Positions 13,407 to 63,352 of a DNA stretch of 64,000 nucleotides are shown piece by piece (positions within the stretch are counted from its first letter, which is position 1; the number at the start of each line of letters is the position of its first letter). The notes beneath the pieces are model-generated. The model saw only the letters and a list, made by a program, of their open reading frames with translations. It did no database searches and was not told the origin of the DNA. The stretch is from Astrocystis sublimbata (Eukaryota > Ascomycota > Sordariomycetes > Xylariales > Xylariaceae), in the NCBI GenBank assembly GCA_022453515.1, contig JAJNNY010000047.1:186001-250000 (forward strand), given 5' to 3'. The position numbers were made by a program, and so were the translations under genes.

Positions 13407-14719
13407 CTAGAGACGCGAGATCTCGAGTCCGACCCCGGAGCCCGGAGCGCACTTGTGCCCCGGCGCCACGGGCTGCTGCGCAGCTAGCTTGCCTCCGGTG
13501 CAGATCGCAAAGTGCATCCCGTCGGGAAGACAGGTGAGCTGGCCGTCGGTGCATTCTCCGCCGGAGCCCGGGCCCACGGCGACCTTGCTGGACTCCGCCG
13601 CGGGGGCCGAGCTAGCAGGTGCCGGAACCATGGTGGTGAGGGTGGTCATGATCGTGACGACCTCGGTTCCGCTGTTGGGGGGAGGGCACATGGTGGCGGC
13701 TGGGGCGGAGCTTGCGGACTCGACCACACTTGTGGATGAAGAGTTCGCTGGTGCAGAGCTGGAGCTCATAGGTGCTGAGGACGACACCGCGGCGGAGGAT
13801 GATGATGACGACGATGATGCCTTGGGGGACGAACCGCCGTCGCCGTTGTTGGCTGGGGCCTTACGGGCGCGGGGGTTGCCATCACACACCTGCTTGAAGA
13901 GGTTGTCGCCCTCGGGACGGTCCACCGACTTGCCGGGGTCAGGGTAGGCCACAGAGATCTGCTCGCGCTGTGCATCCGAGGTAGTGCATCCGCCGGCAAA
14001 GTCTCCCATGTTTGCCATGAACAATTCGGGGTAGTCATTGTCCCGGGTTGCCATGAGAGCGTCACGGCGGTCCGGCAGACTCATGCGCTTCTTATTGCTG
14101 GGAAGAATGGTAATAGGGGCGCAGTTCACTGTGATAATGTTAGCAGTTTGAAAAAGATACTTAGGAAGATGTAACATACTATAGTACTCCGGCTGGCCAC
14201 CGATTCTCGAAACCCACGCTAAGAGAAATGGTCAGTTAAAATCTTTCGCTTAGGGGTGGGAGGGGTTGACTACTTACTCCAAGCCATCGTCCAATTAGTG
14301 CCAGTCTCAATACCTTCTGGGATCTGGAACGTATATTTGTCGATGTTGTCGCCGTCTAGGTTGCCTTTCTGGTTGCGCGCCGGGCAGCCACCTTCGATAG
14401 AGTGAATGACCATCCAGGGCGAATCCTTGTCTGGAAGTCCGCGACTGAGCGCGATTTGACACGATCCGCCGCCGTGGACAGCATGTCCCGAGAAGGTAAG
14501 TGTCTGGTCCTCGCCAATGGCCATCGGCGTGGGCTCACCATCGATGATGTATGATTGTCCAGGGGGGATCTTGCATGGGAAGTCTGAGCCCGTAGAGGAG
14601 ACGGGGTTAGTAGGGCCATCGGACACGAATTTATAGGGCTTGGGGCTCTCCAGGACCACGTGTGCCGCTGATAAGGATATCAGTAGAAGGGAAGTGAGTG
14701 AGTATCTGTAAGAAGGCAT
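13407..14719 (-). CDS. Secreted LPMO-like protein with C-terminal chitin-binding-type module, 3 exons
   Basis: Exons (minus) 14719-14278, 14218-14180 and 14128-13407 give 400 residues. Residues 1-19 form a signal peptide. Cleavage after Ala-Ala would expose His20 as the first residue, as lytic polysaccharide monooxygenases (LPMOs) need for their copper brace. A second candidate copper ligand is His82 in GHAVHGGGSCQ, and the catalytic-domain end has EYYMNCAPITI. A long Ser/Ala-rich linker (~200-320) separates this from a Cys-rich C-terminal module (~340-385) containing GECTDGQLTCLPDG and HFAICTGG, similar to CBM19-type chitin-binding repeats. LPMOs oxidatively cut crystalline chitin or cellulose; the C-terminal module points to chitin. 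I cannot assign the AA family. The small middle exon was found by frame continuity and restores the YYMNC motif. Confidence 0.85.
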
Positions 14720-30105: not shown

Positions 30106-32082
30106 TCATGACGACTTCTCAGCAGCAGGCGATGGAAGCCCCAAAGGGCTAGGCCTCTCGCCCACGCTACCATCCACGTCCCTCACGATGTCGAGACTCG
30201 ATTTGAAACCACCCCTCTTGTAATCGCGACTGGTCCTTGGCGAATGCTTGCCGAAGCTCGTCCGCGGGACATCCAGACTCGCCTTATAGGGCGGGGATTT
30301 AGGTGTGCCGCTTCCGCCGTCGCGGGCCATGTCGAGGCTGTCACGAACAGGCACGTGGCTCTTGACCGCCTCGTCGAGAGTCTCGCTCTGGCGCGTGTCG
30401 GCGACGGCGCGCTCGGCCTTGACCTGCTTGTCCAGGTCACCATCCTTCTCGGCGTCTTCAACCATCTCCCGGAGTGCCTCGCGTGTCAGGTCCTGGCGAA
30501 ACATGCGCTCGACAATCTCCTTCTTCCGCGTGCGGCGCCCGCCCATAGAGATGAGGATGCCCGCCGTGATGTTTGTCGTAATCGACACGCTCAGGATGGT
30601 GGGGGTGAGAGCCTTGGGCCGCGTGTTCGAGAGCAACCCGTAGCCGTACGTCGTCGCGCCCAGACTCACCTGCAAGCATGAGTGAAAGTCGAGCAGCAGC
30701 ACGATGGCAATCAAGTAGGCCTGGGGGAAGGCGAAGTGGGTCTTGGTCTCGTGGGGGCGGTAAAAGGTGTGGGACTTGGCGAATTTCTCCTGGTGGTGGA
30801 CGAGGGTGGCCTGCTGGACGTCGGTGAGGACGGAGACCTCGTCGCGGGCGGCCTCGAGCTCGGGGTCGGTAGGCAGGTCGTTCTTGTCACGCAGCTTGGC
30901 CATCTGCAGCTTCTTGCGCAGCTTCCAGGTCTTGCGATGGTAGTGCCAGATGTAGAGCATGTGGTAGGTGTCGACAAGCCGCCAGGGGATCAGCAGGTCG
31001 CCGACGAGGCCAAACAGGGCAACGAGGGTAAAGTCGATGATATCGATGACGTAGAGCTGTTTGGTACCCACATAGAGCCAGCCGATGAGGAAAAGAACCC
31101 AGGCTAGACCAAACAGAGTGATGAGGGTAGCATAGAGGGTGACGAAGAAGCCGAGGGGCTTGCGCACGTACTGGCCGAAGGCCTTCATGGTGCGCTTGAA
31201 GCGGTTGCGGCGCGAGTGCAGCATGTGGCGGACGTGGTCGTTGAGCTCGGCCATCTCCTCCTTGGTCCAACCTTGAAGCGAGACGCCGTCCGGCAGGATG
31301 GCGTGCTCGAAGTCATACTCGTAATCCTGGTCCTCCGTCTGCGAGGCTCGGTCGAAGCCATCATGCCTGGGCGGATGGGGAACGGCGGTTGTGCCAGTGC
31401 CGGCCCGCGTGGCTCCTGTGGCGTTCTTGCCTTTGTCAAAGGTGCCGCGTCCAGGGGCACGGGTTAAGTTGTAAGTCGGCCGTCTGTTGATGAAGCGACC
31501 GAGGGAGGGGATGAAGAGGGAGTTCTGGATGTTGGTGACGTTGTTGAGGGTCTGGACCTCGGGGTCTGGTGGGATCATATGTTAGCGCTTGCATGAATGT
31601 TGGTGATGTTATGTTTGCCATCGTTTCCCTCGAGGCAGGCTCGAAAGGGGAAGCTGAACAAGGACGATAGAGCAGTGGGATTAGGGCTACGCACCGATGA
31701 CGTCCAGGACGTCTGCCAACTCGGCGTTCACGGCATTGCCGCGGCCGCCGGGGGCGTTGAACAAGGCGGTGCTCCCTATGCGCTTGTTCTCGTTTATGGG
31801 GACGAGGTGCGGGGTGTTGGTGCCGCGAGGGCGCAGGACGGCAAGCTTGGGGCGACGGCTGCGGCCCGAGGGATCAGATTCGGAGCGCCGCCGCGACGAG
31901 GACGACTCGGGCTGGGATTCTTGTTGTTCGGTTGGACGGTTCGCGTGGTCGATGACGCTGTGTGGGCGGAACAGGCCGGTGTTGTCGTCCTCGTAGACGT
32001 GGTTGTCACCGACATCGTTGCCACTGTGGTTATTGTCGCCGCCGAAGCGGATGTGGCGCTCACCGTCGTCGGATGGTGGCAT
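30106..32082 (-). CDS. DUF2985 integral membrane protein, 2 exons
   Basis: Exons (minus) 32082-31695 and 31565-30106 give 615 residues. The N-terminal ~230 residues are hydrophilic and Ser/Arg-rich. Three or four hydrophobic segments follow: around LGFFVTLYATLITLFGLAWV, the following WLYVG-VIDIIDFTLVALFGLV stretch, a later FPQAYLIAIVLLLDFHSCLQ, and ILSVSITTNITAGILISMGG. A charged C-terminal tail bears repeated SLD motifs. The conserved LxDxHSCxQ and the RxxxxYHMLYIWHY region match DUF2985 fungal membrane proteins, whose function is unknown. The intron has a GCTAAC branch point and CCACCAG acceptor and joins in phase 1 as VLDVIDPEVQ. The longer open frame begins with GTG, so I use the ATG two codons on. 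Confidence 0.87.
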
Positions 32083-46257: not shown

Positions 46258-47032
46258 GGTCGAGTAGTGCGACGATGAGGGTGTAAGTAAGGGTTTGAGA
46301 GTGCCGGCAGTGTGACAGCGAGACTGGAGAGTGAAGAAGGTCGAGTTGGGGCACTTGTTTAGGGAAGGGTGAAAGGTTGAAAGGCTGAAAGAAGTGTGAG
46401 ATCGGCCAGTTCAGTGGTGGAATGACTGTGTGGGGGGAGTTGAAGTTACACAATTCCTCGACAGCAGGCGGGCAGGCCAGATATATATAGACACTGGAGT
46501 GAAACCTTAGTGAATGAATCATAGCACCGACCACTGGCACCTATTGGGTATTCACTATGTGCAATGTCAATATGAACCTATTGGGATATTCACTACGCGC
46601 CACGTACTCCAGAACCTGTCGAGACATTCACTATGCGCCGCGTAATGTTACGCGAGCGAGTAATATGGTATTTAGTCTCCAGGCCGAAACGAGGCCTTTT
46701 GTTACACTATTTTACAAACACTGTTATTGGGAGAAATAGTCTGAAGGGACGTGATGTGTTGCCCCCCTCCCGCGATAAGGCGGTTGATGCCGGGCAACAT
46801 AGCTGAATCGAAAATTATCATCTTTAAATCCCTGGCTGTTTTCAAACAGTCAACCTCGATAGACATCACGATCCTTTAATACAAGCTATTCATTGTGTAC
46901 TCGCCAGCTATTTAAGAGGATCAACTATACCTCAACATCGGCTATCTGTTAGCGATTCGTTGGTTATACATTTCCACATCAACTACATATCAACTACACG
47001 TTGATGACAACCTCGATCTACCAAACGCAAGT
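46258..47032. other. Divergent promoter region
   Basis: Lies between the minus-strand unknown gene and the plus-strand kinase. A TATATATAT element at 46481-46489 could serve the minus-strand gene. Near 46541-46640 a phrase resembling CCTATTGGGTATTCACTATG recurs two or three times in diverged form. Confidence 0.45.
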
Positions 47033-48585
47033 ATGCCTACTGACTCCCATACTTCCCAACCATCTCCGGAGGTGGCCGTGCTTTCTACTTCTAGTAACTT
47101 CTCTGCTCGCATTCTCATGCGTCCTAAGATTGCAGGCATCCATATCGGTTCCTATAAAACCAACAAGGACCCTGGCAAATGGGCAAAAGGTCAATCGGAC
47201 CAAGTTGACGTTCTTGTCGTTGAGCCAGATCATGTGCATGTAGGGTGTGTTGTTTCTTTCGGAAATATGCATTGCTCGTTGTTTTTCGATCCCAGTCACG
47301 ATCATCTATGTTTTAGTAACGATTCTATGACCAATCAGTCAGCCATATTCCTTCGGAGCGAAGGAACTCACGGCCAAGGATCTCACGGTGACAACAACTT
47401 CAGTCAAATTCGCCGTGAAGTCACGCCGTTTGCACAAGTCAATCTAGAGGTGGGTGTGTGGTCCCTCGCACTAGCACCCGACAAAGTCTTCATGGAGATC
47501 GAAGTTCTGGGACGCAAGCCTTGGAAGATTCTTCAGCCATCGAAGAGCGGAGAACAGGTAGAATCCCAGAGCGGCAGCGGGAATGCCCTGGTCGAGCTGC
47601 GGCGTGAGGAAGCGATCACCATCGGAGTGGGCAAGACATACTGGCTTAAACGCCTCAACACCCTATACGATCAGCCTACATCGACGGTTTGGACGGCGGA
47701 ATCTACCATGTACAATACCCGTCTCAGCGGACACACAATTGCTGTGAAAGTCCTCAAACCTGGCTTTGAGGGAGATTTGATCCGGAAAGCGCAGGCGTGG
47801 AAAAATGAGGTTGAAACCCACGCCGTGGTCAGTGGCCATGTGAGTAGTACTAACACCCAAGCCTTTTGTTTTTATACCTTACGTACTTACCATTTGCTAA
47901 CCTTTTTTGATAGCCTTCTATCGTGCGACTACTCGGCTTCGATGCCCGCTTCCACAGCATCTATACCGAACACATCGATGCCAAGTCCTTGCTGAACTTC
48001 TTCCGATCCGACGCATCCTTCACCGGCACCCGAGCAGATGCACTGCGCATCATGCAGGATATCTCTTCGGCCCTTGCACATGTGCACTCCAAGCAGAAGG
48101 TGCACGGCGACGTCAAGCCTGAAAACATCCTCTTCAGCCGCGAACGCGGTGCCGTGTTGATTGATTTCGGTTCCAGCTTCTCGTGTGGTCGGCCATTACT
48201 ACCCTCGGAAGAATCCCCATGGTATCTGCCACCCGAATATGCCGAGGACTGGGAGCTACGAGATGCCCCCTCGGATGTCTGGGCCTTGGGGATTGTAGGC
48301 CTTTGGTTGGTTGGTCGCATTCAGCTGCCCGAATCGTACGCTCTCAACTGGAATGTCTCGGATGCCACTTCCATCACGGCCGATGTGACCTCCCATGACA
48401 AGGCTAGGAGTGCCATGGACAAGTGGCTGGAGTGTGTCAAGAAAGCTCGAGCGAAGTTGCGAGAGGAGAATGAGCTGGAGGCAATCATTATACGCATCTT
48501 GGATTATAACAAGGCGACTCGTATCAACGCTGCATCACTTCACATGCTGCTGGCCGGCCTGCCTACACACTTGATGTACTATTAG
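47033..48585 (+). CDS. Ser/Thr protein kinase with long N-terminal region, 2 exons
   Basis: Exons 47033-47839 and 47914-48585 give 492 residues. The kinase domain starts near residue 210: IAVKVLKPG carries the ATP-anchoring Lys, HGDVKPENILFSRE is the catalytic loop (HGD instead of HRD, Asp and Lys present), IDFGSS is the DFG motif, PPEYAE replaces APE, and DAPSDVWALGIVGLWL is helix F. The catalytic residues are therefore present. The N-terminal ~200 residues hold a beta-rich stretch, with HVGCVVSFGNMHCSLFFDP and NQSAIFLRSEG, that looks FHA-like to me; this is an inference. The 74-nt intron (GTGAGT, TTGCTAAC branch, GATAG) is phase 0. It neighbours the RiPP cluster, but nothing shows it belongs to it. 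Confidence 0.85.
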
Positions 48586-48961: not shown

Positions 48962-50681
48962 TTAGGCTGCAACCCGAGGGTGGTACTTCACCATCAGGTC
49001 GGCCTTATTCCATAAGATCTTGGTCGTACTTTCGCCCACCCAGTCTTGTTGCGGCTTGGCAAGTTCCCAGTCGAATAGCAGGACCATCTTGGCCACGGCA
49101 ATGTGCAGCTCGAGATAAGCAAGGTTGACGCCTAGACAAGCCCGTGACCCAGTCGAGAAGGGCTGGCTTGCCTTCTTTTGGTCGTTGAATCCGCTGCCCA
49201 CCCAACGCTCTGGGCGAAACTGCTGGGGATCCTGCCAGTAGCGTGCGTCGCGCGTCATTGACAAGGGCGATACCGAGACAACCGTACCGGCGGGCACGTA
49301 ATGCCCGTCGACCACGGCTCCAGGAGAGTGACGGGGCATGGGAAACGGTGCGGGCGGGAACAATCGCATGGCTTCCTCGATGACTCCGTGAAGATACGGT
49401 AAGCTGCCTGCGGACTCGCCAGTTACCTGCTCAACGGAGGTGAAAGCCCCGCGAACCTCGTCCTGCAACTTTTTCATGCAAGCAGGGTTCTTGAGGAGGT
49501 AGTATGTCAAGGCAGATAGAGTCGTCGCTGTCGTTTCGGATCCCGCGATGATGAGGGTTGACGACTGCGCCATCATCTCTTTCACGCTCATCGTGCCTCT
49601 GCTCAACATGTGAGAGAAGAAGTCGTCGCGGCCGGTGTCTCCCAATTGCAAACGCTTCTCAGAGAGCTCCTTGCAGAACTTCCGGTGTATCGCAAGCTTT
49701 TCGGTCGCTCCCTCGGGCATCAGGTATGGCATGAAGGGATCCAAGAGGGGAAACTTCCGTCTTATGTGAGTCATCTGTGCGTTGACGACCGAGTCGAGGA
49801 TGACCTTGACCCAGACATGCGTTTCCCCCTTTTCAACCCCGCCAAAAGACTCGCCAAAGGCAAGATCACCTGAATAGAACATTAGTCGGGCAGATAGACA
49901 AAAACAGAGTGTAGTACGAACCGATGATATCGAAAGTCAACCAGTTGAACGCCTGCGCGACATTCAGAGGCTTCTTGCCATTCTCTCCGATCCTCGCAAG
50001 TTGGTAGGTGTAGCCATCGACATATTTCTGTACGATCTCCTCCTGCTCGCGCAAAGACTTGGTACTAAACGCGTGAGAGAGCGACTTGCGCTGGCGCGCG
50101 TGGACTTCGGGATCCCTTACGCCCACAATACGCGGCGTGGGGTCGTCGTTCTCGTAGAACTCCGTCTTCAGGAACCTCGCCTTGCCTTTGGACACATGGC
50201 CGTGAATCTCGTGGAATGCCTCTGCTGTGGCAAAAGACAGTTCATTGGGCCCAACACGAACCACATCGCCTTGATTGGAAGTTAGCCAGAAGATCCCTGG
50301 GTGAGTTGGGAATGACAGGGCTGACCGTGTTTTTTGTGGAGCTGATCGATGATGAAGGGAAGGCGCTCGGTTGTCAATGCCCAGACTGACCACAACTAGA
50401 TCATATTCAGTACTCATGCGAGACCACATCTTGGTGATGGAGGATTGGATCTTACCTCTGTGAGTGCGGCTAGTTTGGGGCCCGGGTATTTGGCTAGGGG
50501 ATGGAAAAACAGGAGGTACACCGCCCGAATTGAGTAATACAAGATCACCTATAGGAAATGTTAGTCACGTTGAGTTCATACCCGCGGCGTCATTCATCAA
50601 AATGCTCATACTTACACTTGACACAAGTGCCAAAGCGCCAACTGCTGGCGACAGCATACGAGAGCCACCAATGTCAGCCAT
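48962..50681 (-). CDS. Cytochrome P450 monooxygenase, 5 exons
   Basis: Exons (minus) 50681-50616, 50548-50456, 50395-50326, 50269-49922 and 49869-48962 give 494 residues. An N-terminal membrane anchor (~12-38) is followed by the hinge FHPLAKYPGPKLAAL. GDVVRVGPNELSFA, the I-helix AGSETTATT, the K-helix ExxR in EEAMR, FRPERW and the haem-binding FSTGSRACLG (Cys ~437) are all present. The three small N-terminal exons were recovered by frame continuity: the conserved LPFIIDQLHKKHGDVVRVGP appears only after splicing. The style recalls CYP65-like fungal P450s of secondary metabolism (family recall, not tested). It is anchored to the ER. Its place at the left edge of the RiPP cluster makes it a candidate tailoring enzyme. 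Confidence 0.93.
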
Positions 50682-52280
50682 AATGTGAGACCCCAGTGTT
50701 GTTGAAAAAAGTGAAGAGACACAGCGATTTCTGGGTCCCTTTTGATGCAGGACCTCACGGTCCATATATGCATCGCCGTTAAAGCACTTCTGCTACCGTA
50801 CCCCACTGACGTCGTTTGTACCGCTTACTACGTGTGCACACCATGGCTGGGTTCGGGTTTGGTTGGGTTCGCTATCTGACAGTGCAACCCCTTCCCAGCT
50901 TCCTCTTTCCTCGGGTGGGCATGGGCCGAAATGGGCGCTTACATAAATCCGGAAACATTACGGTGAAGAGATGAGTATGTGGGCGCAATGGTTGATCATG
51001 CTCTGATCATGGTTTCCCTTGTTAGCGCTGTCTTGATGCTGGCTCGGCTCGGCTGGTGTGCTGGTTTATGGAACGGGTGGCTCGGCGGGGAGCAACAAGG
51101 GTCTCCTCGGATGGTACCAGATCGTTATTAGAGTATCAGTCGCGATTTCGATTTGGGGCGAAGGGCGCGAACTGTTGCCATCTCAAGCCAATGCTGTCGA
51201 TTGCGGGAGTATACTACTGGCGAGCAATCATTTGCCGCACTTATTTCACAACCTTACGGTGCACCATGTGAGGCACGAGGTGTATTCTTCGCGCCAATGC
51301 GATGACCGTCCGACTCTCCGACTCTCCGATCCGATAGGTGACGACGATGAGTAAAGTGTAACGGCCGCTAGCAATACCCCATAACCCCACAGCCAAACCC
51401 GGAATATTCCCTGTAATTATCAGTCACAAGCAAGTCCTAACGGACTTCGAATAAGTTCGCTCTTCAATCCAAATCCGACTTCTTCGCAACGAAGAAATTT
51501 GCGCTGGAGCCAAGGACGCCATTGTAAGATCACATTGGCCTTTATTGGAATCTCACGATCACAAACTATGCCCAGCTTATCTCATGAAAGTGCCGATCTC
51601 GTATGTGACGCTGGTCTAGTGCTCGCCAAGGTGCCCGCCGCGGCTGGCTCGCGCACGTCCCTTCGGTATGTGGTCGTGTGGCACAGGAGCGGTATTCGCT
51701 CTATCATCGCTCCACATTCAGGGTTGTCGTCGCTATACCGGGTCTGGTTAGCAGCTGACGAGTGCGCCCTACAGACAGGTCGAGTATTAAATCGGGGAAC
51801 TAGGCGAGCTAGGCACAGTGACGCGAATGTAACAGATATTTGGTCTTAGCGAACCGTGTGCAATTGTTTACTAATGAAGTGCCATCTCTCATATATCTGC
51901 GGGATGTAATATACTCGAATTCCGGTAATGGGATAAGTAGGTGATCGGAGTAATGGTATTGGACTCCCATGTCGCTGATGAGAATAAAGCTAAGCTCCGG
52001 CATATCTAAAAGGATATTGATAACTGGGCAGTGAACGGGAAACCCCGTACAGCCGTTGGAGCCGGAGCTGGCGGCCCCGCAACTTTCCTCAACTTTGGAT
52101 TATTGGTGGAAATAGCCTAAGAAATTCGATGAGTTAATAAAGTTGAGTTTGTTCTAGATCGTGTGAGGTTAATAGGTATTGCAGTGCGATGAGTACCTAT
52201 TCGTTATCTTGGGCAAAAAGTCGTAAGTGAATTCTACTATATTATGGTGTTCTCATTAAACTATAAGATGGGACATCTGC
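50682..52280. other. Intergenic, no gene seen
   Basis: 1.6 kb between two minus-strand genes: promoter of the P450 and 3' flank of the rhodopsin-like gene. ORFs at 51056-51354 and 51499-51849 have no recognisable features. Confidence 0.5.
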
Positions 52281-53748
52281 TTAGATACTCTCACACTTAA
52301 CTAAATCTACCTTGTCGTTAGACAATTGACCTAGCGAGTCTTTTGGCTGGGAGGTAGGTTGCCAGGAACTTTCGGATCGGCTCGTGTCGCCTCCTCTTCG
52401 ACGAAAATTTCGCGCCTTCTTCAAGAGGGACACACTTGAGGGAAGTGATCGGAGCTTGGACAAAGGAGGGTTGACGGATATCTTGTCCAAGACCCATGCA
52501 CTTCGAGGGACACATGCAACTTGAAATCCAACGCCGATTTCAATATAAGTCCAGAATATCACAATGGATATAATCCCTGTCAACGTGCTTAGTATATGTG
52601 AAGTCTATTGAAGTCTAACTCAGGTTGTCGCCTACCTTGTTGATCACCGATTGGAAACGTCGTACCAAGTACTCTGATCGTTGGGTTCGTAATACCTTGA
52701 GTGAGTACTTGGATCCAGGGAATTAATCGGATAAGACCCGCGATAACAGCACTATTAGAGTTTAATTGTCATGTCACTTGATTCGGACGGATAATGAGCA
52801 CCTACAAGCCACTAACCATGAAAATGAAAGACGTCTGGATCTTTCGCTTCCTGGACATGTTAAGCGTTCGGATCTGCACCATGTCAGGTTCAAGGACGTC
52901 TGGGTCTGTCAAGGCAGTCACGCTCGAACTTACCATCACTAGCGGCTCTGTGAAAATCGCAAGATCGAGAACCCAACTGAATACTGCACACCCAGTCTGC
53001 ATTCCGAAAGTGTCGACACATGCACTCCTCAGGGAATTCCAGCTTTCCCAGCTTGCTTCTGGTGCAGTGCCACAAGCGAAAATGTCGAAGAACAAGAACA
53101 CTGCCGTCCAAAGCGTGACAAGAGCAATAAGAACCCAGTTGACGTGATCGAAAGTGGTTCTGATTGCACTCCCTGCACAGGGAAGAAGATTAGACAATGT
53201 GAGTCAGGGGGGTCGGCGCCACCTAAACCTTTGAACAGTCGACGAAACAGGAAAAGAATCGTCAATTTGATAAAACCGATGGCTAGGACATGGCCAATCC
53301 AGAAAGCGTATTCAAACTTGTGTCTCAAGTCAGCATGAACCTCAAGCCTATGGAAAACGGAGGTGGGCTAACTAACTTTGCCAAGCTTGACTGATTCTAT
53401 ATCCACATTCGTAGGAAGTGAATGCCCGCCGATGATATGCAATTGAGTTCCTGATGGATTTCTGTGAGAATGAGACTGAATGTGAGAGGGTTTGATCAAA
53501 AGTACCTGTCACCAATGCTGCGCCGGCTGCAATAGTGAGAAACTGCTTCAAAAATAAGTCACCGACTCGAAGTGGACGTGGAGATGGCTTATGGAACGTA
53601 CGCCAGCGGGGATAATAAGTATGTCATCTATGTCGATAGAACGGCGATAATATCGCCAACCGTACATTCGGACACCAATAGATACTAAAGCTAGGATAGG
53701 GAAGAGCAGCCCGATAGCCATCATACTCTGGGGATTAATATAACCCAT
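52281..53748 (-). CDS. Fungal rhodopsin-like (PTH11-related) seven-helix membrane protein, 8 exons
   Basis: Exons (minus) 53748-53602, 53545-53506, 53450-53377, 53316-53229, 53172-52934, 52873-52806, 52751-52636 and 52576-52281 give 355 residues. Hydrophobic helices include MMAIGLLFPILALVSIGVRM, the TIAAGAALVTG stretch, FWIGHVLAIGFIKLTILFLF, HVNWVLIALVTLWTAVFLFF, LDLAIFTEPLVM, IFMVSGFAVIAGLIRLIPW and ISIVIFWTYIEIGVGFQVAC. The conserved ILxLxFxRRLF and IExxVGxxxAC patterns are typical of the fungal rhodopsin-domain family (PF20684-type). The C-terminal ~75 residues are cytosolic and Ser/Lys-rich. Such genes often sit in secondary-metabolite clusters, but their role is unsettled (signalling, sensing or transport). 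The eight-exon model is hand-built. All junctions keep frame; exons 2 and 6 are the least certain. Confidence 0.83.
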
Positions 53749-54914
53749 GTTGACCAATTATCGGTTCGCCCGAAGCAATATTCAAATAGTGATAATGAAT
53801 TGGGGGTGACCGAATATCGTGAGGCCGCAAGCTACTTGTAGTCAAATGCAGCAATCTTCGGGGGTGAAGTTGGGGTCTCTGGCTGTTCAAGTGATATCTT
53901 TGGGAGAATAGATACCAGGAAGGTACCCAATAATGATTTCACCCGCTGATGGAGTCAGGGAAGCAGTGCCTTCTGCGGTCTTAGGGACAAGAGGGGATCA
54001 AATACAATGGCACAATGCGGTGAAAAGAGGACTCAATAAATATAATATACGAGGTCAGCAAGGCATTGTATATGGGCGACATGGCAGATATAGCCTGCTT
54101 CAGATACTCCCAGATGCTACATAAGAGTCTATACAACAGGAGGCAACCAGACCTCATAACACGCATATGCATGATTCCTAACTGAGGCGGTTCGACTACC
54201 GTGTATAGTGGTTCTTGCAATGGGCGTTACGCTGGACCAAATAAGATCGTGGCGCTGTCCAATTGTCCGCAGTAACTTTGCTCTGAATATGCTGTTGGTC
54301 ACAATAAAGATGCAGACTGGAAACGTATTTACACTGTTGGTCACAGGCGGGGTATAGCGCGGCTAACTGGGCAACCTTGGGCGTGATATTATCATTGGTT
54401 AAATAATGCATCCTTGTCAGATTACAGGGCATGGCATACCAACACACATTCACATGTTGTAGCGAACATCTAATTAGTCTGCATTACTATAATAATAATT
54501 GTTCGCTGTTAGCTGTGGGAAGATGCCAGCCTGCAGGTTGTGACCTGAGGAGCCTGGCAGTGATGCACGGAACTTTCATCTACAAGGTGGGGGTGGCGCA
54601 GCAAGGTAGGGCGCGATTACAGCAATCTGTATCTCAATCGTTAGCACTAATACTGTCGGCACTCGAGACATGCGCTTGGCGGGCATCACAATTGCCACTA
54701 TTTTTCAACTTTCCTGAGACAAGAAATGCACCTAGGTACATGAGCATTTATAAATTGCGTGATAGGAGCACGAAATCGAGTAGATGAAAAATAAGCGGCG
54801 GAGAAACAAACAAGGCTTGTAACATAAAGCGTTCTCATAGAGAGATGATTATCAAGGTTTAGGTTTTAGAACATTAGATTGAAGGAACCAATACGCTTAA
54901 GTACGAAGCCTAAT
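53749..54914. other. Intergenic, no gene seen
   Basis: Promoter of the rhodopsin-like gene and 3' flank of the monooxygenase. Small ORFs (e.g. 54431-54787) have no domain. Confidence 0.5.
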
Positions 54915-56268
54915 CTACACGGTAGTTACATCCTTCAAACTAGCCTCCATCATCTGTAGTGCTTCATCGCGGTGCTTCTTCACGTCAAGATCAATAATAA
55001 AGTCCCATCTTGACATAAACGACTTGAGTTTCTCCGGTTCAAGTCCCATCTCACTATCTCCCCCCATTAAAACGGTACCAATTGCTCGACTCGATTCGAC
55101 AATGCGCTGAGTACGTGGGCGGCGAATCTGGTCATATACCTGCAAAGCCGACAAGGCCTCAACTGGCGTCTTTGAACGCCCGAGTAGTGCAGAGAGGATG
55201 AGACTATCCTCAATAGACATGCCACCACCAGATCCCTGCCATGGAGTCATGGAATGAGCCGCATCGCCAGTGATACAAATAGCACCTGAGACATAAGACT
55301 TGGCTTTGGGATGGTCCCAAAGATAGAAGGCTTGGTGCTCGGGTTGGGTGCATAATAGCTGCATCTTTTGTTAGTTGATGAGTTGCATACATGTGATATT
55401 CAAGCTACAGATCTGGAATCTCTCTCACCTCATTGATAGCTTTGTTAAGATGGGGCGGCCAGTCCTTGTACAGCTTCTTGATTTCTTCCGCGCTCACAGT
55501 TCGTTGCCAACCTTCGATAGACCCAGACTCGGGCAATTTGTCTCTGGAAGCGACTGCAAATTGCACTAATTCCCCGCCGCTGAGGATGTTGTGCATCAAA
55601 AAGGTGTTTTCGCCGGCCCATCCGTACTCTCGGGCATCCTCAAGGTTGACGAGGTCTTTACCCAGGCTGGCTTGTGCTTTATCGAATGGTTGAAGAGTCA
55701 TGAGAAACCAGGAGCCGCTGTTCTGGGGAGTAGCTGTAGGGTCGTTCTCGCCAAGGACGAGCTTCCGAACAGTGCTGTGAACCCCATCGGCACCAACAAC
55801 AATATCACATTCATGTGTAGTGCCATCAGTAAAGTGAAGGCAAACAGAACCATTTTGATCTATGCTCTGGAGCTTCTTTGACGCATGCATTCGTTCCCGA
55901 GGAATGTCGGCAAGCAATTCCTGCAACAATGGGACGCGGTGAACGATGCTTGTGAGACGCTGCCCTTGGGTAACATCATCCACCTCATCAGCAACCGTTC
56001 CCACTCCCGGTCCTTGAGCAAGCATGAAGCGAACACCCTTCATAGGGACGGCTCCAGCTCTTTCGAGGCATTGGGCAGCGGATGGGCCGATGAGCTCAAG
56101 GGAGGCCTGCGCGTTGCGAGCAATGCCTATCGCCATGCCGGCTTCTTTGAAGGCAGAAGCAGACTCAAAGATGTGTACATCTAGGTGGGAGAATTTGATA
56201 AGGGCATGAATCAGGGAAGCTCCAGCGAGCCCCCCGCCAATGATAGCGACTCTGATTGAAGTACTCAT
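54915..56268 (-). CDS. FAD-dependent monooxygenase (salicylate hydroxylase-like), 2 exons
   Basis: Exons (minus) 56268-55429 and 55358-54915 give 427 residues, normal for group A flavoprotein monooxygenases. The dinucleotide-binding GGGLAGASL (11-19) is followed by an acidic residue ending strand 2 (HIFES). The DG motif reads GADGVHSTVR (159-168) and the GD motif GDAAHSMTPWQGSGGGMSIED (from 311). The enzyme would use FAD and NAD(P)H to hydroxylate or oxidise a small or peptide substrate. The single 70-nt intron (GTGAGA donor, GATGCAG acceptor) is phase 0. A longer open frame begins 20 codons upstream, but MSTSIRVAIIGGG is the natural start. It is next to the peptide precursor gene and on the same strand, so I infer a tailoring role; ustiloxin-type clusters also carry flavin monooxygenases. 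Confidence 0.94.
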
Positions 56269-57334
56269 GATGAGAAGGTTGTGATCTTGTCTAACGATGT
56301 TATAATAGTATATGAGATCTAGATGCAACAGATAAGAGGCTTCGTATGTTTATCACCTCCATGAGGATGCATAGCAAGTGCTGTTATACTGATTTTACCC
56401 ATAGCTCCCATAGCTAGAGTATGAGGTCGCTTAGCCACATGTGACATAGCGGCCCGCATGAGATCTACCCCCACATCTGTTGTTGTTAGTAGTGTTGCAG
56501 AATCAAGTTCCGGGTATGTTCATGTATGTTGGTTCACATGGAGGTTATGCCTTGTATGAGCGGCTAGCATCTTGCTCTACTCGCGTAGAATGATTGGTTG
56601 ATATTGGTGTGAAGTAGAGTCTCCAAGTTCATGCATGCGTCGGATGCATGAAGCGATGAACTAGGCTAGGGCCTCAACATTAGGTCCATATCAGCCCTAC
56701 CCCTGGAGCACGCATTCTTGGAGACATCCGTATCCAAAAGTAGGTTGACTTTTGACGATCAAGTCTTTTCGTAGCATAATTGATGTTGCAAGGCAGTTTA
56801 CCATGCGAAACCTTTGTGATTGTTGGTATTGCTGCAGATGATAACCATGACTCGTCAATCTACGGTCGCTGTCAAATCAGTTGGGCGGCCCGCAACCAAT
56901 AGCATGTCGTAGATTTGCTTCTTGGCGGTTATGGAGCTCCGTCTCGCCCTGGGCAGGGGTCTGGAGGCATACACGCTAATTAGGTACGTGGATGTCGTCT
57001 AGGTCGGTCGTCTTTACTAATCGTTAATTTACCTCACTTGGAAACATGGGCAAACAGAGTATCGCAGCCCAACGGAGTAACTGTACTTTAAAGCTTCTGT
57101 ATGGAATTCAAGACTTATTATTCTTCTTAATGGAATCACAAGACACCTTTTTTGACTTGAAGCTAATAATTGATTGAAATGTAGTGACAATATGGAATAA
57201 CTAAGATTGAGCTACTTCATCACCAGTCGTTTCATATCGACATTGACGTTATCACGCCTTTGCGCACTAGTAAAAGAAATGTTGTATTGTACGTTGAGAC
57301 TCGTGAGGGAATTGCAGTGTACTTCTAGCTCTGC
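56269..57334. other. Intergenic, no gene seen
   Basis: About 1.1 kb between the monooxygenase and precursor genes, holding the monooxygenase promoter and the precursor 3' end. No ORF of note. Confidence 0.5.
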
Positions 57335-57647
57335 TTAATGCTTGAGAAAGAAATCAGGGTCGAATTCAGTTGTACCGTCTCTCTTGCCCTTCAAGAAGAA
57401 GTCCGGATCAAATTCAGTCGTGCCATCTCTTTTGACTTTCAGAAAGAAGTCAGGGTCGAACTCGGTAGTTCCATCGCGACTTTCAACAACGCGTGAAACC
57501 ACTTGCTGTTCTACGGGCAGTTAGTAATTTTTCCAACGACAGCTCCATTCATGTAGGTAGTCAGATGGCCTTACTAGCGATGATGGGCATCGAAGCAACA
57601 GATCCCAGAAGTAGACTTGTGATGAAGATTGACCTCATGATGGACAT
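57335..57647 (-). CDS. RiPP precursor peptide with signal peptide and three Kex2-type repeats, 2 exons
   Basis: Exons (minus) 57647-57575 and 57510-57335 give 82 residues. Residues 1-19 or so are a signal peptide (MRSIFITSLLLGSVAS core). After a short spacer come three copies of a 16-residue unit beginning RDGTTEFDPDFFLK, at residues 36, 52 and 68. The copies are joined by VKR and GKR, i.e. Lys-Arg Kex2 sites at 51-52 and 67-68; the first copy follows Ser-Arg and the last ends with Lys-His. The 64-nt intron has GTAAGG, a perfect TACTAAC branch point and GTAG. A secreted repeat protein with dibasic spacers is the hallmark of dikaritin precursors (ustiloxin, phomopsin, asperipin types) and of Kex2-processed repeat proteins in general. 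It is divergent from two UstYa genes. A TTT ATA-type TATA box may lie at ~57782-57789. The product is unknown. Confidence 0.88.
57338..57478 (-). repeat. Coding tandem repeat, 3 x 48 bp
   Basis: Units at 57478-57431, 57430-57383 and 57382-57338 (last one truncated). The first 14 residues of each are identical, yet 9-11 of the 14 codons differ between any two copies, almost all silently. Confidence 0.93.
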
Positions 57648-58505
57648 TGTCGGTTGGATATTGATGAGAGTAGGTTTTCTTCAAAAGTATGATTGGATAA
57701 GGGTAGATTATCCTGTTTTAGATGATGTGATTGTTTCCTGTAGGGAAATTGAACATACAGCTTGAATTGGGCAAGGAATTATAAATAGATAAATCAACAC
57801 TGCGATCTTTTACACATTTGAACCAGATTGTGGCAACTGGTACCCATTATTCCAAAGCATTAATGCTTCCGCCCAACTTGCATTGACCTTTCCACGAGAT
57901 CAATTCTTAGTGGATACATCCTTGCAAGATAACAACACTCTCGCCTAGAACAATGTAAGCGATATCGAAGCTTCAATGCACGTTGGGCGATAGAAATTTA
58001 AATGTGGCTGGCCAACGGACCGACACTCGTCTATCACGTCTTGTTTGGCAGCCTGCTCTATCACCTAAATGAAGTGCAAACCCTTCGATGGGGTCCCAGC
58101 GGCTAGCATAGTGCCACACATGAAGTCTTTTTGGTCGGGGTAACTAACACGCCAATCGTAATAAATCGTTCGTACCCGAGGCAATGGATCGTTTCTATAT
58201 GGTCCACCAGGAGTCATGGGGCTTGCATGGGTCTTAAGCACTGTGCTGGGGCTTAAAGATCTACCCGCAGCTAACGATCCTATGAAATTTGTCATGTAGT
58301 GACTTGCAAATTGGCACGGCTGATTAGAATGAGAGAGCGAGTGGGAGCTCTAGCTTCAGCTCAAGTTGCTATCTCTTCCGCCCGTTTTTACATCACCTTC
58401 GTTATACTCGGCGATTATCCTGCTTGCATCGCATATGCCCAACGGTTACAGATGCTTGGAATCTACTAATTACTGTTGTTGTGTTTGCATTTCCAAGAAT
58501 CAACG
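57648..58505. promoter_or_regulatory. Divergent promoter of precursor and first UstYa gene
   Basis: 858 bp shared by two divergent cluster genes; a natural place for pathway control. A 76-codon minus ORF (58065-58295) inside it shows no recognisable feature, and I do not call it. No clear inverted repeat or known binding site was recognised. Confidence 0.5.
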
Positions 58506-59485
58506 ATGTCAAAAATGAACAGACAGCCGTTGCTGGATGAAGAAACTGACAACGTCAACCTTTGTGAATCTGACCCGGCTCATCCAACCCGCCCTGACCG
58601 ATTTTGCAACGCCGCACTGATCACGAATGCTATATTGCTGACAATTTGCCTTCTTTTGGGGTTCACTGTACTGTTGCTTCCGAGCTCGAGTAAGAAGCAG
58701 CAGGAGGGCTTGAGGGGCAGTATCAGCGACCCTTACTGTATGTACAAACTTGACCCGTTACACCCGATACTAATCCCTCCATAGCCCCAGAAAACACCAT
58801 CGTTGAGTATGAGTACCGCCAAATGATAGGGAACGATACTCGTTTCACAGGCCATCCTGGACCAGAATGGGAGAAGTCTATGCACGATGTGATGACAGGT
58901 AAGTATTTGACAAAGTGGATTGCTATCTCTAATCAGAATGGCAGGCACCCTTATACGAATATCCGATGATGAACGGAAACTGCTCAACTCAAACTCCATT
59001 CCCTTGAAAGATGGCGGATACGCTGCAGGGCTAGGGGTAGCGCATAACCTTCATTGTATTGTAAGCAGCCTATCTCAATGACCTAACATCGATGCAGTGA
59101 TGTTGGTAACCTGGGATGGTGACTAATGAATCGAGAACAGAAGCAGATCAAGAAGTTTCTATATCGCGACCAATTCTATGCCGAGATAGATCCGAATGGA
59201 GCGGACTTCGCGTATCTTCTTTCTCACGCTGGTAAGTTTTTTGTCCTTTCGTCACGTCAAACTTTCCATAATTAACGTCTTCTGGTATTAGATCACTGCC
59301 TGGATTTCCTACGCCAGAGTATCATGTGTCATCTAGATTTCACGGTTTACACGCTATATTGGGGCGAGAACACGGAAAAGCCAACACATCGTGCACCAGG
59401 TCTACAGAAGTGTGTCAAATGGGAAACGTTACATGGCTGGATGTCAGGTAGGCAAGCCCGAACAGATATGCTAGTAGGGCCGTGA
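58506..59485 (+). CDS. UstYa-family (DUF3328) oxidase 1, 5 exons
   Basis: Exons 58506-58737, 58785-58898, 58945-59060, 59141-59231 and 59292-59485 give 248 residues. A short cytosolic N terminus precedes one membrane helix (~34-58, NAILLTICLLLGFTVLLL), so the enzyme domain faces the secretory lumen. Family landmarks follow: YSPENTIVEYEYR, the first HXXHC (HNLHC, 149-153), the second HXXHC (HADHC, 183-187) split by intron 4 and running into LDFLRQSIMC, then APGLQKCVKW. UstYa proteins are copper-type oxidases that form cyclic cross-links, or hydroxylate or chlorinate peptides, in fungal RiPP and related pathways. Intron phases are 1, 1, 0, 1. The C terminus is short, ending at a TGA 14 codons after HGWM. 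An in-frame upstream extension starts with TTG and is not used. Confidence 0.92.
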
Positions 59486-60077
59486 AGAGTTTGCAAGCAT
59501 ATGACACACCCAGTTGCTGTGTCTAAATTGAATAGCCTCACAGTCTGGAATGAGTTCTAAGTAAAACAAAAAGACACAGAGCGTCTCGATAAGCTTAAAA
59601 TATGTGCTCATCGCAATGATACAATACGCCGTAGTGTAAGAAAACGTATTGTTTGTACTTTAATACAATCTTGTTGTCGCGCTAAATCGACGCACGATTC
59701 ACAGAGAACCCAGTCTCCATGGTAATAGACTTTAGGGACGTGTAAGCATCCTTACCCGCCCGGGTATAATTGGAGCACCTGCACAGTACTTATGCATTAA
59801 CCAACATTATGTTTGTGACAAGGGTGACTACGTTGCAGGAAAGTTTCGGTTGATCAGTGACTCGCACTGTTTTTTTGGCTATGGCTGTTTGAAGCGTTTA
59901 AGATGTGACCAACTGCAGTTGGAAATGCAGGCTTATCTTAACAACCAACAGAGGGTACGGCCGCCGACGAACCCCATGCAGACGTTTTCAGATAATATAT
60001 GATGTGTGTATGGGACTTTGATCTGAGTAACACTACGGTAGGCGCAGCTCTACTACATTGATTGTCCGACATACAAG
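59486..60077. other. Intergenic between the two UstYa genes
   Basis: Non-coding; promoter of the second UstYa gene. Nothing distinctive. Confidence 0.5.
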
Positions 60078-61125
60078 ATGGCTTCAGATATGCTAGCAGA
60101 AAATGCCCCCTTCCTGTGGAATGGGTGTTCCTCAAACTCTGAAGAGAAGGCTAAGAAAAGGCAAGGAGGCCTCTTAGAACGTGGCAATTACAGGGCTGTT
60201 TGGATTTTCCTCGCTTTTCAATTGATATTCCTTGCATTCAACTTGGGTTTCCTCATCTTCAATACTATACCTATACCGGTCAAGTATCAAGCACAGCACA
60301 CGTCTGCCCTTGAAAGAGCATATTGTGAGTGTACCCGAGGCTCTGAGCTAACTTGCATTACCCATATTGATGAAAACCCTTGCAGCGCCGGCAGACCTAG
60401 CTCTCGAGTATGTTGTTCTCGAAGACTCAGATCACAAGCACGGTGCATCTCCATATACCGGAGAACCTCGTGCTGAGCTTGACGAAGCCTGGTCTAAGCT
60501 ACTACGGTGTAAGACTTGCGTCATTACCCATCTGAAATTTCAATGTCGAACTGAACGATACAGCTACTCTTTTGAGAATGACCAAGGAAGAAATGGTGAA
60601 AATGAACAAGACTTCTCTCAGCCTTCTAGACGGAAGTGGTTATGTTGGCTACCTTGAAACCTTTCACATGCTACACTGCGTGGTAAGTGTATTGTCTGCA
60701 TTGATCAAGCACATATTAGTTACCTGCTAAAGACATTTAGAAACGTATATATCAATCCCATCATCAGGAATACTATCCTGAGCAGCAACGTGACGGCGCC
60801 TTCACTGATGCCCACTTGTGTAAGCAGTTCATCTTGAGAGAGGCCCTGAATGCCGTACTAAGTGGTTATAGACCATTGCCTAGATGTACTCCGCGAAGGT
60901 ATCATGTGTAATGCTGATTTGTCAATCAACACATTGTTCTGGGAGACCCCGACCAAAGTGCAAGGTGCAAGGCCAGGATTGCGAAAATGTGTCAATTGGG
61001 ATCTACTTCAGTCATGGGCCGAGGACAGAACACTTACGGCGAAAGATAGAGAATCTTTCTTGGCTACCTTGGTTGTTCCATTTGAGAAGCCTGGGAGCAT
61101 TGGTCCTATTGATTTACTCTTATGA
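60078..61125 (+). CDS. UstYa-family (DUF3328) oxidase 2, 5 exons
   Basis: Exons 60078-60324, 60386-60508, 60564-60682, 60741-60819 and 60872-61125 give 273 residues. One membrane helix (~41-62, IFLAFQLIFLAFNLGFLIF) follows a basic cytosolic stretch. Then come YSPADLALEYVVL, the substrate-side LLRMTKEEMVKMN region, DGSGYVGYLETFHMLHC (first HXXHC, 158-162), and HLYHC (second HXXHC, 188-192) running into LDVLREGIMC and LRKCVNWDLL. The second motif has Tyr where oxidase 1 has Asp. Intron phases 1, 1, 0, 1 and positions match oxidase 1, showing common descent. Two UstYa genes beside a precursor mirror ustYa/ustYb in ustiloxin clusters, where both are needed for cyclisation. Lumenal, probably Golgi/ER. 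Confidence 0.92.
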
Positions 61126-61557
61126 AATGTTGAAGGGTTAGTACTCACGAGCACAACCTTCCGCAACCGCCCAACTTGGGTACGGCCAATGGCCCTAGTG
61201 ATCAAGTACCTAGGTACACTTTCCCAACTCCTGTATTCTTGTCTACAAACCTCTCTATTTTGAATGAAAATATAAAAAAGACCTTCAATACTGTCCGACA
61301 ATGCTACCGTCCGTGAAGAAAACTAGGAGAGCAATCTGGTATGAAATTATAGCAAACTTCAAGTGGGATGCGCCGATGCGGGCGCAAACTCAAGAGCATG
61401 CTGTGCCAGGCTCAATCGCGCCATTGCCAATTACCTAGGTAGGTTAGGTCATCTCCCATTGATGTCAATGCGTAATGCGCGGGGGGTAGCAGTACTATAG
61501 CACATGGGTAATGGCGTCGGCAGCGGCTCGAGGTGCACGCTTGAAAGTTAGCCCTCG
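61126..61557. other. Convergent intergenic region
   Basis: 3' ends of UstYa 2 and the MFS gene. An A-rich stretch (~61260-61280) may carry polyadenylation signals. Confidence 0.5.
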
Positions 61558-63352
61558 TCAACCGCCCATCTCCAATTGCATCTGTATTCTCTCACGCTTC
61601 ATTAGTAATGCGCAAAGGATCAAAATCGCCCCAGAAACGATGATGAGTATGTAGGTATCATTGATGGCGGTGACAAGTATTTCGAGCGCAGGACGCTTGA
61701 CTTCAGGCGGCGCCGTCTGCAGCACTACACTTCTGGCTCCAGCAATAGCCGCTGTGACATCCTCCTCTGAGAAGCCAGCTGGAACTAGGATAGCGAGCAG
61801 CCTCTGACGTGCGACGGTCTGGAAGATGGTGTTGCAGATGGCAAGGGCCACAAGTATACTACCTTGCTGTCCGATGTTGATGAATTGAATAGCCTCAGGT
61901 ATCTCGTCAGGCAGGACCTTGCTGGGCACGATCGAGTAGGCGGCTTGGAACGCCGTCTGACCAACACCGACAAGGATCGAGTAGCCATATATCTTGGCGT
62001 TGGCAATATCAATCGATGAAGTATAGAGCAGTGCGCCGCCGATAGTGGTCAACACACCGCTGAACAGAAACCAGGGCATGTAATAGCCCCAGCGTACCAT
62101 CAAGATCCCGTTGAACAGAACGCCAACAACATAGAAGACGACGAAGGGGAGCAGCCGCACAGCGGTCTGCTTGCCATCTTCATTGCGGACCAGGGAGTAA
62201 AAGAGCGAGAGGTAGTATATGATGACATAGAGTGCGCCGACTAGCGCAGTGCAGGAGAGTAACAACAGCACCATCGTCCGGTCGCGGAGAAACTGCACAG
62301 GAAAGAGCCTGTCTCTCGAGCTTGTAAATACTGCAAAATGTTGCGTTATCGAGAATGCGACCGCAACAACGCCGAAAACAACGTAAAGCGTGATCATGCG
62401 GCCGTCAGTCCAACTCCAAGTTGAGCCACCGAACGTGAAGATCAATGCGAATGTTGTGTATATGCCGAAACTCAAGATAGTTCCTAACCAGTCAAGCGAT
62501 TGGAGCCTTTTAGCTAGGGGGACGCCCGGTCGAGGGTGCATGGACGGAAGTAGGAAGAGGTATATCGGGGATATCACGGCAAAGATGAACAGGTTGAGGT
62601 AAAAGGCCTGTTTTCATGTCGCGTCAGTAAACGATGATCTTGAACTGATAGGCTGCTCGCAACATACCCATCGCCAGCCTGAAGATGAAGTGTCGGCCAA
62701 CGCGCCCCCTATCACCGGACCAAGGATGACTCCGACGCCGTAGACTAGAATCGCTGCTGCCATGTAGATGCTTCGTTCCTTCGGTGTCGTCAAACGCTGA
62801 AGCATGTTGATATTCCTGGAAATCTATTAGACCAGTTCACATGATCAGTACGGGCAAAAGCAAACTCACCCTAGATACATGCCCGCTCCGCCAGCACCCG
62901 CCCATACACGCCCAACAATCAAGGCGTCCATCACAGGCGCGGCACCACAGAGCGCGCTGCCAGCCGCGAACATTGTCAATGACCCGAAGTAGAGCCATTT
63001 GTTGTCGAAGATGGCGTACGCCTTGCCCCTGTATTTGCGTTCAAATTAGATCGTATGCTTCACCTTCGGCTTAGGGAGCGTCGTCTTACAGCGGCAGGAT
63101 CACAGCAAATGCACCTAGGGGGAACCCTATGCCCAACCAGCCGAGCTTGTTGACATTGCCGAGATCGCTGATTATTGGGGCTTGGATGTCGGCGACGATG
63201 GTGTTGTCGAGTCCGTACAGGAGGTTGCATGAGAACACGGCGATGCACACTAGAAGCCAACGCAGGCCGGTGACCGATCTTTGGACCGCGTCACTTGAGG
63301 CTGGAGACAGTTGCTGGGGCGTTGATACCGAATCCTTGACAGATGGCGACAT
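61558..63352 (-). CDS. MFS multidrug-type exporter (14-helix DHA2/TRI12-like), 4 exons
   Basis: Exons (minus) 63352-63090, 63028-62870, 62815-62668 and 62607-61558 give 539 residues. About 14 hydrophobic helices are seen, starting with RWLLVCIAVFSCNLLYGLDNTIVA; the LDxTIV motif (motif D1) is typical of drug:H+ antiporters. GKAYAIFDNKW (motif A-like), AGAGGAGMYLGN and YGVGVILGPVIGGALAD (motif C, antiporter) follow. The three introns are short, with exon joins restoring ILPLGKAYAIF, YLGNINMLQ and GWRWAFYLNLF. In this position it is the natural exporter or self-protection pump for the cluster product, equivalent to the MFS pumps in other fungal toxin or peptide clusters. It is a plasma-membrane or vesicle protein. 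Confidence 0.94.

Follow-up and report, generated by a model that had tools for sequence, protein, structure and literature searches.

A repeat-peptide gene set of UstYa type that includes a Pth11-class seven-helix protein in Astrocystis sublimbata

Dikaritins such as ustiloxin, phomopsin and asperipin-2a are fungal ribosomally synthesised and post-translationally modified peptides (RiPPs) whose signal-bearing precursors carry Kex2-cleaved repeats and are encoded adjacent to UstYa/DUF3328 genes. Flavin enzymes are present in the ustiloxin cluster. Dikaritin clusters share genes for the precursor, a tyrosinase, a zinc-finger regulator, an S41 peptidase and DUF3328 proteins (PMC6514808). We describe a locus of similar design in Astrocystis sublimbata, within a 64,000-nucleotide stretch (the window) of contig C132 of the 42.6 Mb genome. 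From left to right it carries genes for a cytochrome P450 (-), a seven-transmembrane (7TM) protein (-), a flavin adenine dinucleotide (FAD)-dependent monooxygenase (-), a repeat precursor (-), the UstYa proteins UstY1 (+) and UstY2 (+), and a major facilitator superfamily (MFS) transporter (-). An earlier reading made from the DNA letters (the sequence-only reading) had joined all seven in a dikaritin-type cluster. Comparison with a further copy on contig C19 of A. sublimbata, and with contigs on which parts occur together in eleven other named species, points to a set of five: the precursor, the two UstYa genes, the FAD monooxygenase and the 7TM gene. The 7TM protein may be the receptor of the peptide.

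The dikaritin assignment holds in part. A Kex2-type repeat precursor stands beside a UstYa pair and a flavin enzyme, and these stay together elsewhere too. However, no PhomQ/UstQ-type tyrosinase match lies nearby: on C132 the nearest (74586-75191) is separated from the 7TM gene by about 163 kb. None of the five S41 peptidase matches in the genome falls on C132, a search that exon-split genes could escape. Since the repeat unit is also free of tyrosine, we do not class the set as a strict dikaritin cluster. The four-gene asperipin-2a cluster is likewise without a tyrosinase (PMC6514808), and a tyrosine-free case is not rare, because only 65.6% of the repeats of DUF3328-linked precursors contain this residue; DUF3328 genes lie near 22% of 7878 Kex2 repeat proteins (Umemura 2020, PMC7329392). 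Further differences from the dikaritins are the new core, present in three units, and the presence of a protein of the G protein-coupled receptor (GPCR) class in the conserved set.

Kex2-processed repeat proteins (KEPs) have been defined by at least three tandem repeats of at least eight residues, between KR, KK, RK or RR sites, plus a signal peptide (PMC7329392). The window precursor may share its design with the KEPs of two fungal surveys: two KR sites yield three repeat pieces, but the first is preceded by Ser-Arg, and the signal is judged by hydropathy only. The victorin cluster resembles the window set in its multi-core, Kex2-processed precursor, whereas its core is unrelated and the available text mentions no receptor gene, the gene list being unchecked (PMC9233826); the ring of its product is closed between Phe and Leu (PMC9233826). 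The epichloecyclins (GigA) share a repeat precursor, Kex2 sites, a DUF3328 gene and a small cluster (PMC7317419). Unlike the window set, they are cyclised on tyrosine (PMC6514808), and their cluster has its own kexin gene, with no 7TM partner mentioned in the part available. A survey of Hypoxylaceae, in which detection relied on known precursors, reports a ustiloxin-like RiPP cluster (PMC8403587). In its working, as we read it, the window set would resemble a RiPP cluster coupled with a pheromone system. In yeast, the genes for alpha-factor and Ste2 are not clustered. Alpha-factor is also unmodified (PMC13308352), whereas UstYa genes are present in the window.

The precursor is identical to the public A. 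sublimbata protein F4808DRAFT_266811 (P0001). It consists of a hydrophobic, signal-like N-terminus (by hydropathy only), a short pro-region and three units; its intron has a branch-like CTAAC site ahead of its AG. The units are spaced by 48 nt and are completely identical in protein over 13 residues, while the unit pairs differ at 11, 9 and 10 of 39 DNA positions, every difference being silent. As 91 of the 117 possible single changes to one unit would alter the protein, the probability of this for one pair is about 3e-7, assuming uniform change. Units 2 and 3 are preceded by Lys-Arg and unit 1 by Ser-Arg, which is not dibasic; none contains Tyr. Pfam PF16833 (EKLF_TAD2) scored 24.8 bits on the precursor against a cut-off of 25, which we take as chance. 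The public record is labelled with this motif of animal transcription factors, which the acidic-hydrophobic repeat probably matches by chance.

A database search with an E limit of 10 yields 29 precursor proteins, counting that of the window; 26 fall below 1e-5. The named species presumably belong to the Xylariales, Sordariales, Diaporthales, Eurotiales and Mycosphaerellales. A unit pattern (D, G, two free positions, E/R/K, F, six free positions) was run over these proteins and a diverged precursor on contig C103 of A. sublimbata, and gives 79 units with the consensus DGTTEFDPD-x-x-[F/L/Y]. Arg precedes every unit, as KR or RR in 67. At positions on which the pattern sets little or no constraint, the counts are T4 (76 units), E5 (78), D7 (75), P8 (65) and D9 (75); residue 12 is F in 45 units, L in 20, Y in 10 and another residue in 4, and Tyr occurs at position 10 or 12 in 15 of the 79. 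The end of the mature core is set at residue 12 because a stop codon directly follows it in nine units, although P0002 and P0008, two of the nine proteins, are nearly copies of each other. The C103 units run one residue further before their stop or basic site. The core differs, as the sequence-only reading had stated, from YAIG, YVIPID, FYYTGY and GLKLAF. We found no report of this precursor family, and four pieces of the motif had no match, in the literature texts searched, whose supplements were not searchable and may hold it in tables; Le Marquer 2019 names other conserved KEP motifs, none like DGTTEFDPD in the available text (PMC6339444). The motif offers a handle with which more members could be found, small genes that lack annotation among them.

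The C19 copy comprises UstY2 (-), UstY1 (+), a precursor with the tail FAL, an FAD monooxygenase and a 7TM homolog, with a glyoxalase-like reading frame (judged by eye) among them. Its monooxygenase is 60% identical to that of the window over 435 aligned positions (range 60-63%), and its 7TM homolog 55% over the best segment. Genome-wide, the nearest other copies of the precursor, UstY1, UstY2 and the 7TM gene are all on C19. A hand splice of the C19 precursor came out longer than the public protein P0003 and was not used. The duplicate cluster is flanked by a second PF20684 match (31055-31603) and a second, more distant FAD monooxygenase (12783-14254). The third, diverged precursor, on C103 (340153-340401), has two units and lies beside one UstYa gene; a chitinase-like frame, judged by eye, is found near it.

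Linkage in other fungi was scored for the precursor, UstY1 and the 7TM protein by locus tags and by contigs of equal length under one organism name, here counted as shared; in the 7TM search the 7997 candidates with most shared words were scored. Precursor and UstY1 share 8 contigs, precursor and 7TM 12, UstY1 and 7TM 18, and all three 6. At least one partner is on the contig for 24 of 46 7TM matches, 20 of 40 UstY1 matches and 14 of 29 precursor matches. A shared contig alone is weak linkage where contigs are large, but ordered tags, where two parts are listed, put them close. Such pairs are found in Cytospora mali (precursor 00607, 7TM 00609), Hypoxylon texense (010437, 010439), Zasmidium (002749, 002751), Apiospora (000142, 000144), Madurella (08726, 08728) and Podospora pseudocomata (404492, 404496, with the precursor at 404500 in P. 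bellae-mahoneyi), and close tags also in a Xylariales sp. (125880, 125900, 125910); several genomes with ordered tags list one part only. In three species exactly one tag number separates precursor and 7TM, the place taken by the FAD enzyme in the window, and we infer that the intervening gene encodes this enzyme. The sequence-only reading had named as refuting a repeat gene absent from close relatives that keep the UstYa pair. As a partial check of this, 14 of the 29 precursor matches have a partner as above, and 12 contigs carry UstY1 and 7TM without a listed precursor; these may reflect loss or incomplete annotation of short genes. The comparison between species shows that the predicted precursor, UstY1 and 7TM genes travel together, and membership of the predicted FAD enzyme and UstY2 is shown by the second copy in A. 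sublimbata. We regard it as very probable that the genes for the precursor, the UstYa proteins and the 7TM protein constitute a conserved set.

By its PF20684 domain, its seven helices and its predicted fold, the 7TM protein belongs to the Pth11-like (class XIV) GPCRs; the sequence-only reading had rightly noted a rhodopsin-like protein but missed both its GPCR class and its conserved membership. It has seven hydrophobic stretches (seven to nine across five family members, by a crude count). The predicted structure shows seven long helices in a GPCR fold, and in a VIA-align comparison this predicted fold best matches Ste2, the alpha-factor receptor of yeast. PF20684 is the only Pfam match at E up to 0.001, with none to STE2 (PF02116). 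A six-frame scan of the genome for STE2 also gave no match; in such a scan introns split genes, and no positive control was matched.

Pth11-related receptors are the largest predicted class of fungal GPCRs (PMC4683645), and a 2026 review describes most fungal GPCRs as orphans and the Pth11-like ones as markedly expanded in filamentous ascomycetes (PMC13308352). The window 7TM clade stands beside a peptide gene, whereas the host-infection ligands of Pth11-like members are given as unknown for three fungi (PMC13308352). In one cluster predicted for Trichoderma, gene V encodes a PTH11-type GPCR, and the precursor is described as grouping with the amanitin/phalloidin types (PMC7099791). In the literature, as far as the partial texts without searchable supplements extend, we found neither a peptide ligand for a Pth11 receptor nor a UstYa-receptor pair, and no text contained both 'rhodopsin domain-containing protein' and DUF3328.

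The 7TM proteins sort by the tail of the linked peptide. In a quick tree of 46 of them, of which only 12 could be labelled by a precursor on the same contig, the three FFL-linked proteins cluster (branch 85), as do the four FAL-linked ones (branch 94); the tails linked to the other five end in F. Tail type requires 2 changes on the tree against a shuffle mean of 5.9, and none of 1000 shuffles is as low. Astrocystis has one set of the FFL type and one of the FAL type.

These observations suggest the following working of the set. The precursor would enter the secretory pathway, where Kex2 would cut after the basic sites and the basic residues would be trimmed, releasing 12-residue peptides of the form DGTTEFDPD-x-x-[F/L/Y]. 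To judge by their family, both UstYa proteins, which are anchored in the membrane, would then oxidise or cross-link the peptide, perhaps together with the FAD monooxygenase. Since the unit has no tyrosine, the modification would most likely be at the conserved Phe6 and the hydrophobic tail. From what is known of the family, the product is likely a UstYa-modified 12-residue peptide. Once secreted, it would be recognised by the co-inherited Pth11-class GPCR and serve self or population sensing, a step modelled on the Kex2-processed alpha-factor and Ste2. To take the 7TM protein as the receptor of the cluster peptide appears to be the most economical reading, and we give an even chance to a pheromone-like self-sensing system in which a peptide modified by UstYa-type enzymes has a receptor of its own. 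More tentatively, it is possible that this is a new, Pezizomycotina-wide class of communication, in which UstYa-modified peptides are paired with their own Pth11-class GPCRs and matched variants act as separate channels in one genome. If so, Pth11-related receptors would have a genetically encoded ligand, and part of the UstYa-RiPPs, usually read as toxins, would be recast as possible signals. With a peptide and a receptor of this class encoded in one conserved set, the search for a ligand becomes one direct test.

A number of points weigh against such a sensing system. The chemistry and the ligand-receptor pairing are inferred. A fold of GPCR type may belong to the Pth11 class as a whole and reveals no ligand. 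Joint descent alone explains the sorting by tail as well as co-adaptation does, the two key 7TM branches have moderate support (85 and 94, in a quick tree), and the correlation between UstY1 and 7TM protein distances, taken across 18 contigs, is weak (r 0.34, a value reached in 22 of 5000 permutations). No partner was found on the contig for 22 of the 46 7TM, 20 of the 40 UstY1 and 15 of the 29 precursor matches. The precursor listed for Triangularia verruculosa does not lie on the contig that holds UstY1 and 7TM, and Poronia punctata has precursor and 7TM together but UstY1 on a different contig; both splits could be due to additional copies. Within A. sublimbata, an FAD enzyme copy on C165 is about as close as the one on C19, and the C103 precursor is accompanied by a single UstYa gene, the 29.8 kb searched there giving no homolog of the 7TM protein.

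The association of 7TM with UstYa genes may also be a broader habit. The genome has 20 UstYa loci, and 7 of these (C132, C19, C118, C1, C141, C131, C11) have PF20684 within 7.5 kb, where about 1.3 are expected; the count is among the matches listed (at least 163 exon-level matches, with 150 of 221 candidates scored) plus the two described 7TM genes. Without C132 and C19 it is 5 of 18 loci against 1.2 expected (P about 0.008). The 7.5 kb limit was chosen after the distances were known, the expectation assumes uniform placement, and both kinds of gene may crowd the same regions. These five further loci, one of which (C141) also has a tyrosinase match, favour an alternative in which a UstYa-type peptide is made but the 7TM protein serves transport, self-protection, trafficking or as a scaffold, or responds to a different cue by which the cluster is controlled. 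Transport by another member is conceivable since the window MFS gene is unmatched near the C19 copy, whose own transporters were not searched; however, a Kex2-processed peptide can leave by the secretory route, and no exporter is needed. The GPCR-like predicted fold, nearest to Ste2, and the sorting of 7TM relatives by tail type also speak for a sensor, and we consider this alternative rather unlikely, if the strongest of the competitors.

The locus could also be an ordinary dikaritin-like toxin cluster, in which the P450 and the MFS protein tailor and export the peptide and the 7TM gene is incidental. The UstYa pair, flavin enzyme and repeat precursor fit this model, as do the short gaps of about 1.6 kb between the P450 and 7TM genes and of about 0.4 kb between UstY2 and the MFS gene. 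The sequence-only reading had counted the P450 and MFS genes as members. Neither, however, has a match in the C19 (29.9 kb) or C103 (29.8 kb) stretches searched, and their nearest relatives in the genome are elsewhere (C172 for the P450; C136, C146 and C168 for the MFS gene), so that on the evidence of this one genome we reject them for now. Nor is a tyrosinase or S41 peptidase match nearby, and the precursor shares contigs more often with 7TM (12) than with UstY1 (8). A toxin cluster of this kind seems improbable to us. Still a little less credit is due to an unmodified, linear, hormone-like 12-residue peptide, with the UstYa and FAD enzymes acting on another substrate. The tyrosine-free window unit would suit it, and 6120 of the 7878 Kex2 repeat proteins, linear pheromones included, have no DUF3328 gene nearby (Umemura 2020, PMC7329392). 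However, UstY1 and precursor share a contig in eight cases, and tyrosine need not be required, given its 65.6% share (PMC7329392) and the Phe-Leu closure of victorin (PMC9233826). The pairing of a modified peptide with its own receptor remains the reading that we prefer.

Table 1. Features of the locus, in window coordinates.
Feature	Position	Strand	Remarks
Cytochrome P450, 494 aa	48962..50681	-	neighbour, probably outside the conserved set; hand-made model
7TM protein, PF20684, Pth11-like (class XIV) GPCR family	52281..53748	-	354 aa in the public protein (P0070); model of 8 exons
FAD-dependent monooxygenase (PF01494), 429 aa	54915..56268	-	exons 56268-55429, 55364-54915; hand-made model
Precursor, 82 aa	57335..57647	-	exons 57647-57575, 57510-57335; 100% identical to P0001
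Three repeat units RDGTTEFDPDFFLK	57478-57431, 57430-57383, 57382-57338	-	predicted 12-residue core DGTTEFDPDFFL in each
Precursor-UstY1 intergenic region	57648..58505	.	divergent genes; possible two-way promoter
UstY1, UstYa/DUF3328 family, 248 aa, 5 exons	58506..59485	+	100% to P0030; HNLHC and HCLDFLRQ motifs
UstY2, UstYa/DUF3328 family, 273 aa, 5 exons	60078..61125	+	HMLHC and HCLDVLRE motifs; hand-made model
MFS transporter, 539 aa	61558..63352	-	neighbour, probably outside the conserved set; hand-made model

All seven genes give open models, and the six larger ones match the expected Pfam family (Table 1). The gene inventory of the sequence-only reading was accurate: the secreted repeat precursor is there, with two exons, and is divergent from two UstYa/DUF3328 genes, both far above the cut-off for PF11807 (E 9e-37 for an earlier, 251-aa UstY1 model and 1e-39 for UstY2). 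Pfam likewise recovers its FAD monooxygenase (FAD_binding_3, E 6.5e-17), P450 (p450, E 4.7e-67), MFS (MFS_1, E 1.1e-31) and rhodopsin-like (Fung_rhodopsin, E 2.8e-30) genes. The precursor and UstY1 models equal public A. sublimbata proteins, and the 7TM model carries one extra residue; those of the FAD enzyme, UstY2, the P450 and the MFS gene were made by hand, without comparison to a public model. A six-exon model of UstY1 was dropped for the five-exon one after comparison with the C19 copy, and P0030 agrees. Among solved structures, a search at E up to 1 finds no sequence relative of UstY1.

A six-frame repeat scan of 23 stretches covered 16 of the 20 UstYa loci, leaving out C4, C145, C135 and C130, and flagged C136, C141, C19, C103 and the window. 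This gives no support to a general rule by which a repeat precursor and a 7TM gene would accompany each UstYa locus. Near C136 55539, a different Kex2 repeat precursor-like frame with Tyr in its units lies beside a UstYa match, with no PF20684 within 30 kb among the matches listed. Near C141 187604-187913 there is a tandem DNA array with a Cys-rich minus-strand unit of about 19 residues and basic-pair ends; it was not counted as a precursor, as some units are separated by stops and neither a start nor a signal was seen. On the same contig UstYa lies near tyrosinase and PF20684 matches (189692-190433, 192183-194911, 199497-200300), and a 7TM partner is possible there. The close FAD monooxygenase copy at 131802-133121 is on C165, a contig for which no UstYa match is listed. 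In the window itself, reading frames that look protein-kinase-like by eye (46916-48585) stand beside the P450 gene.

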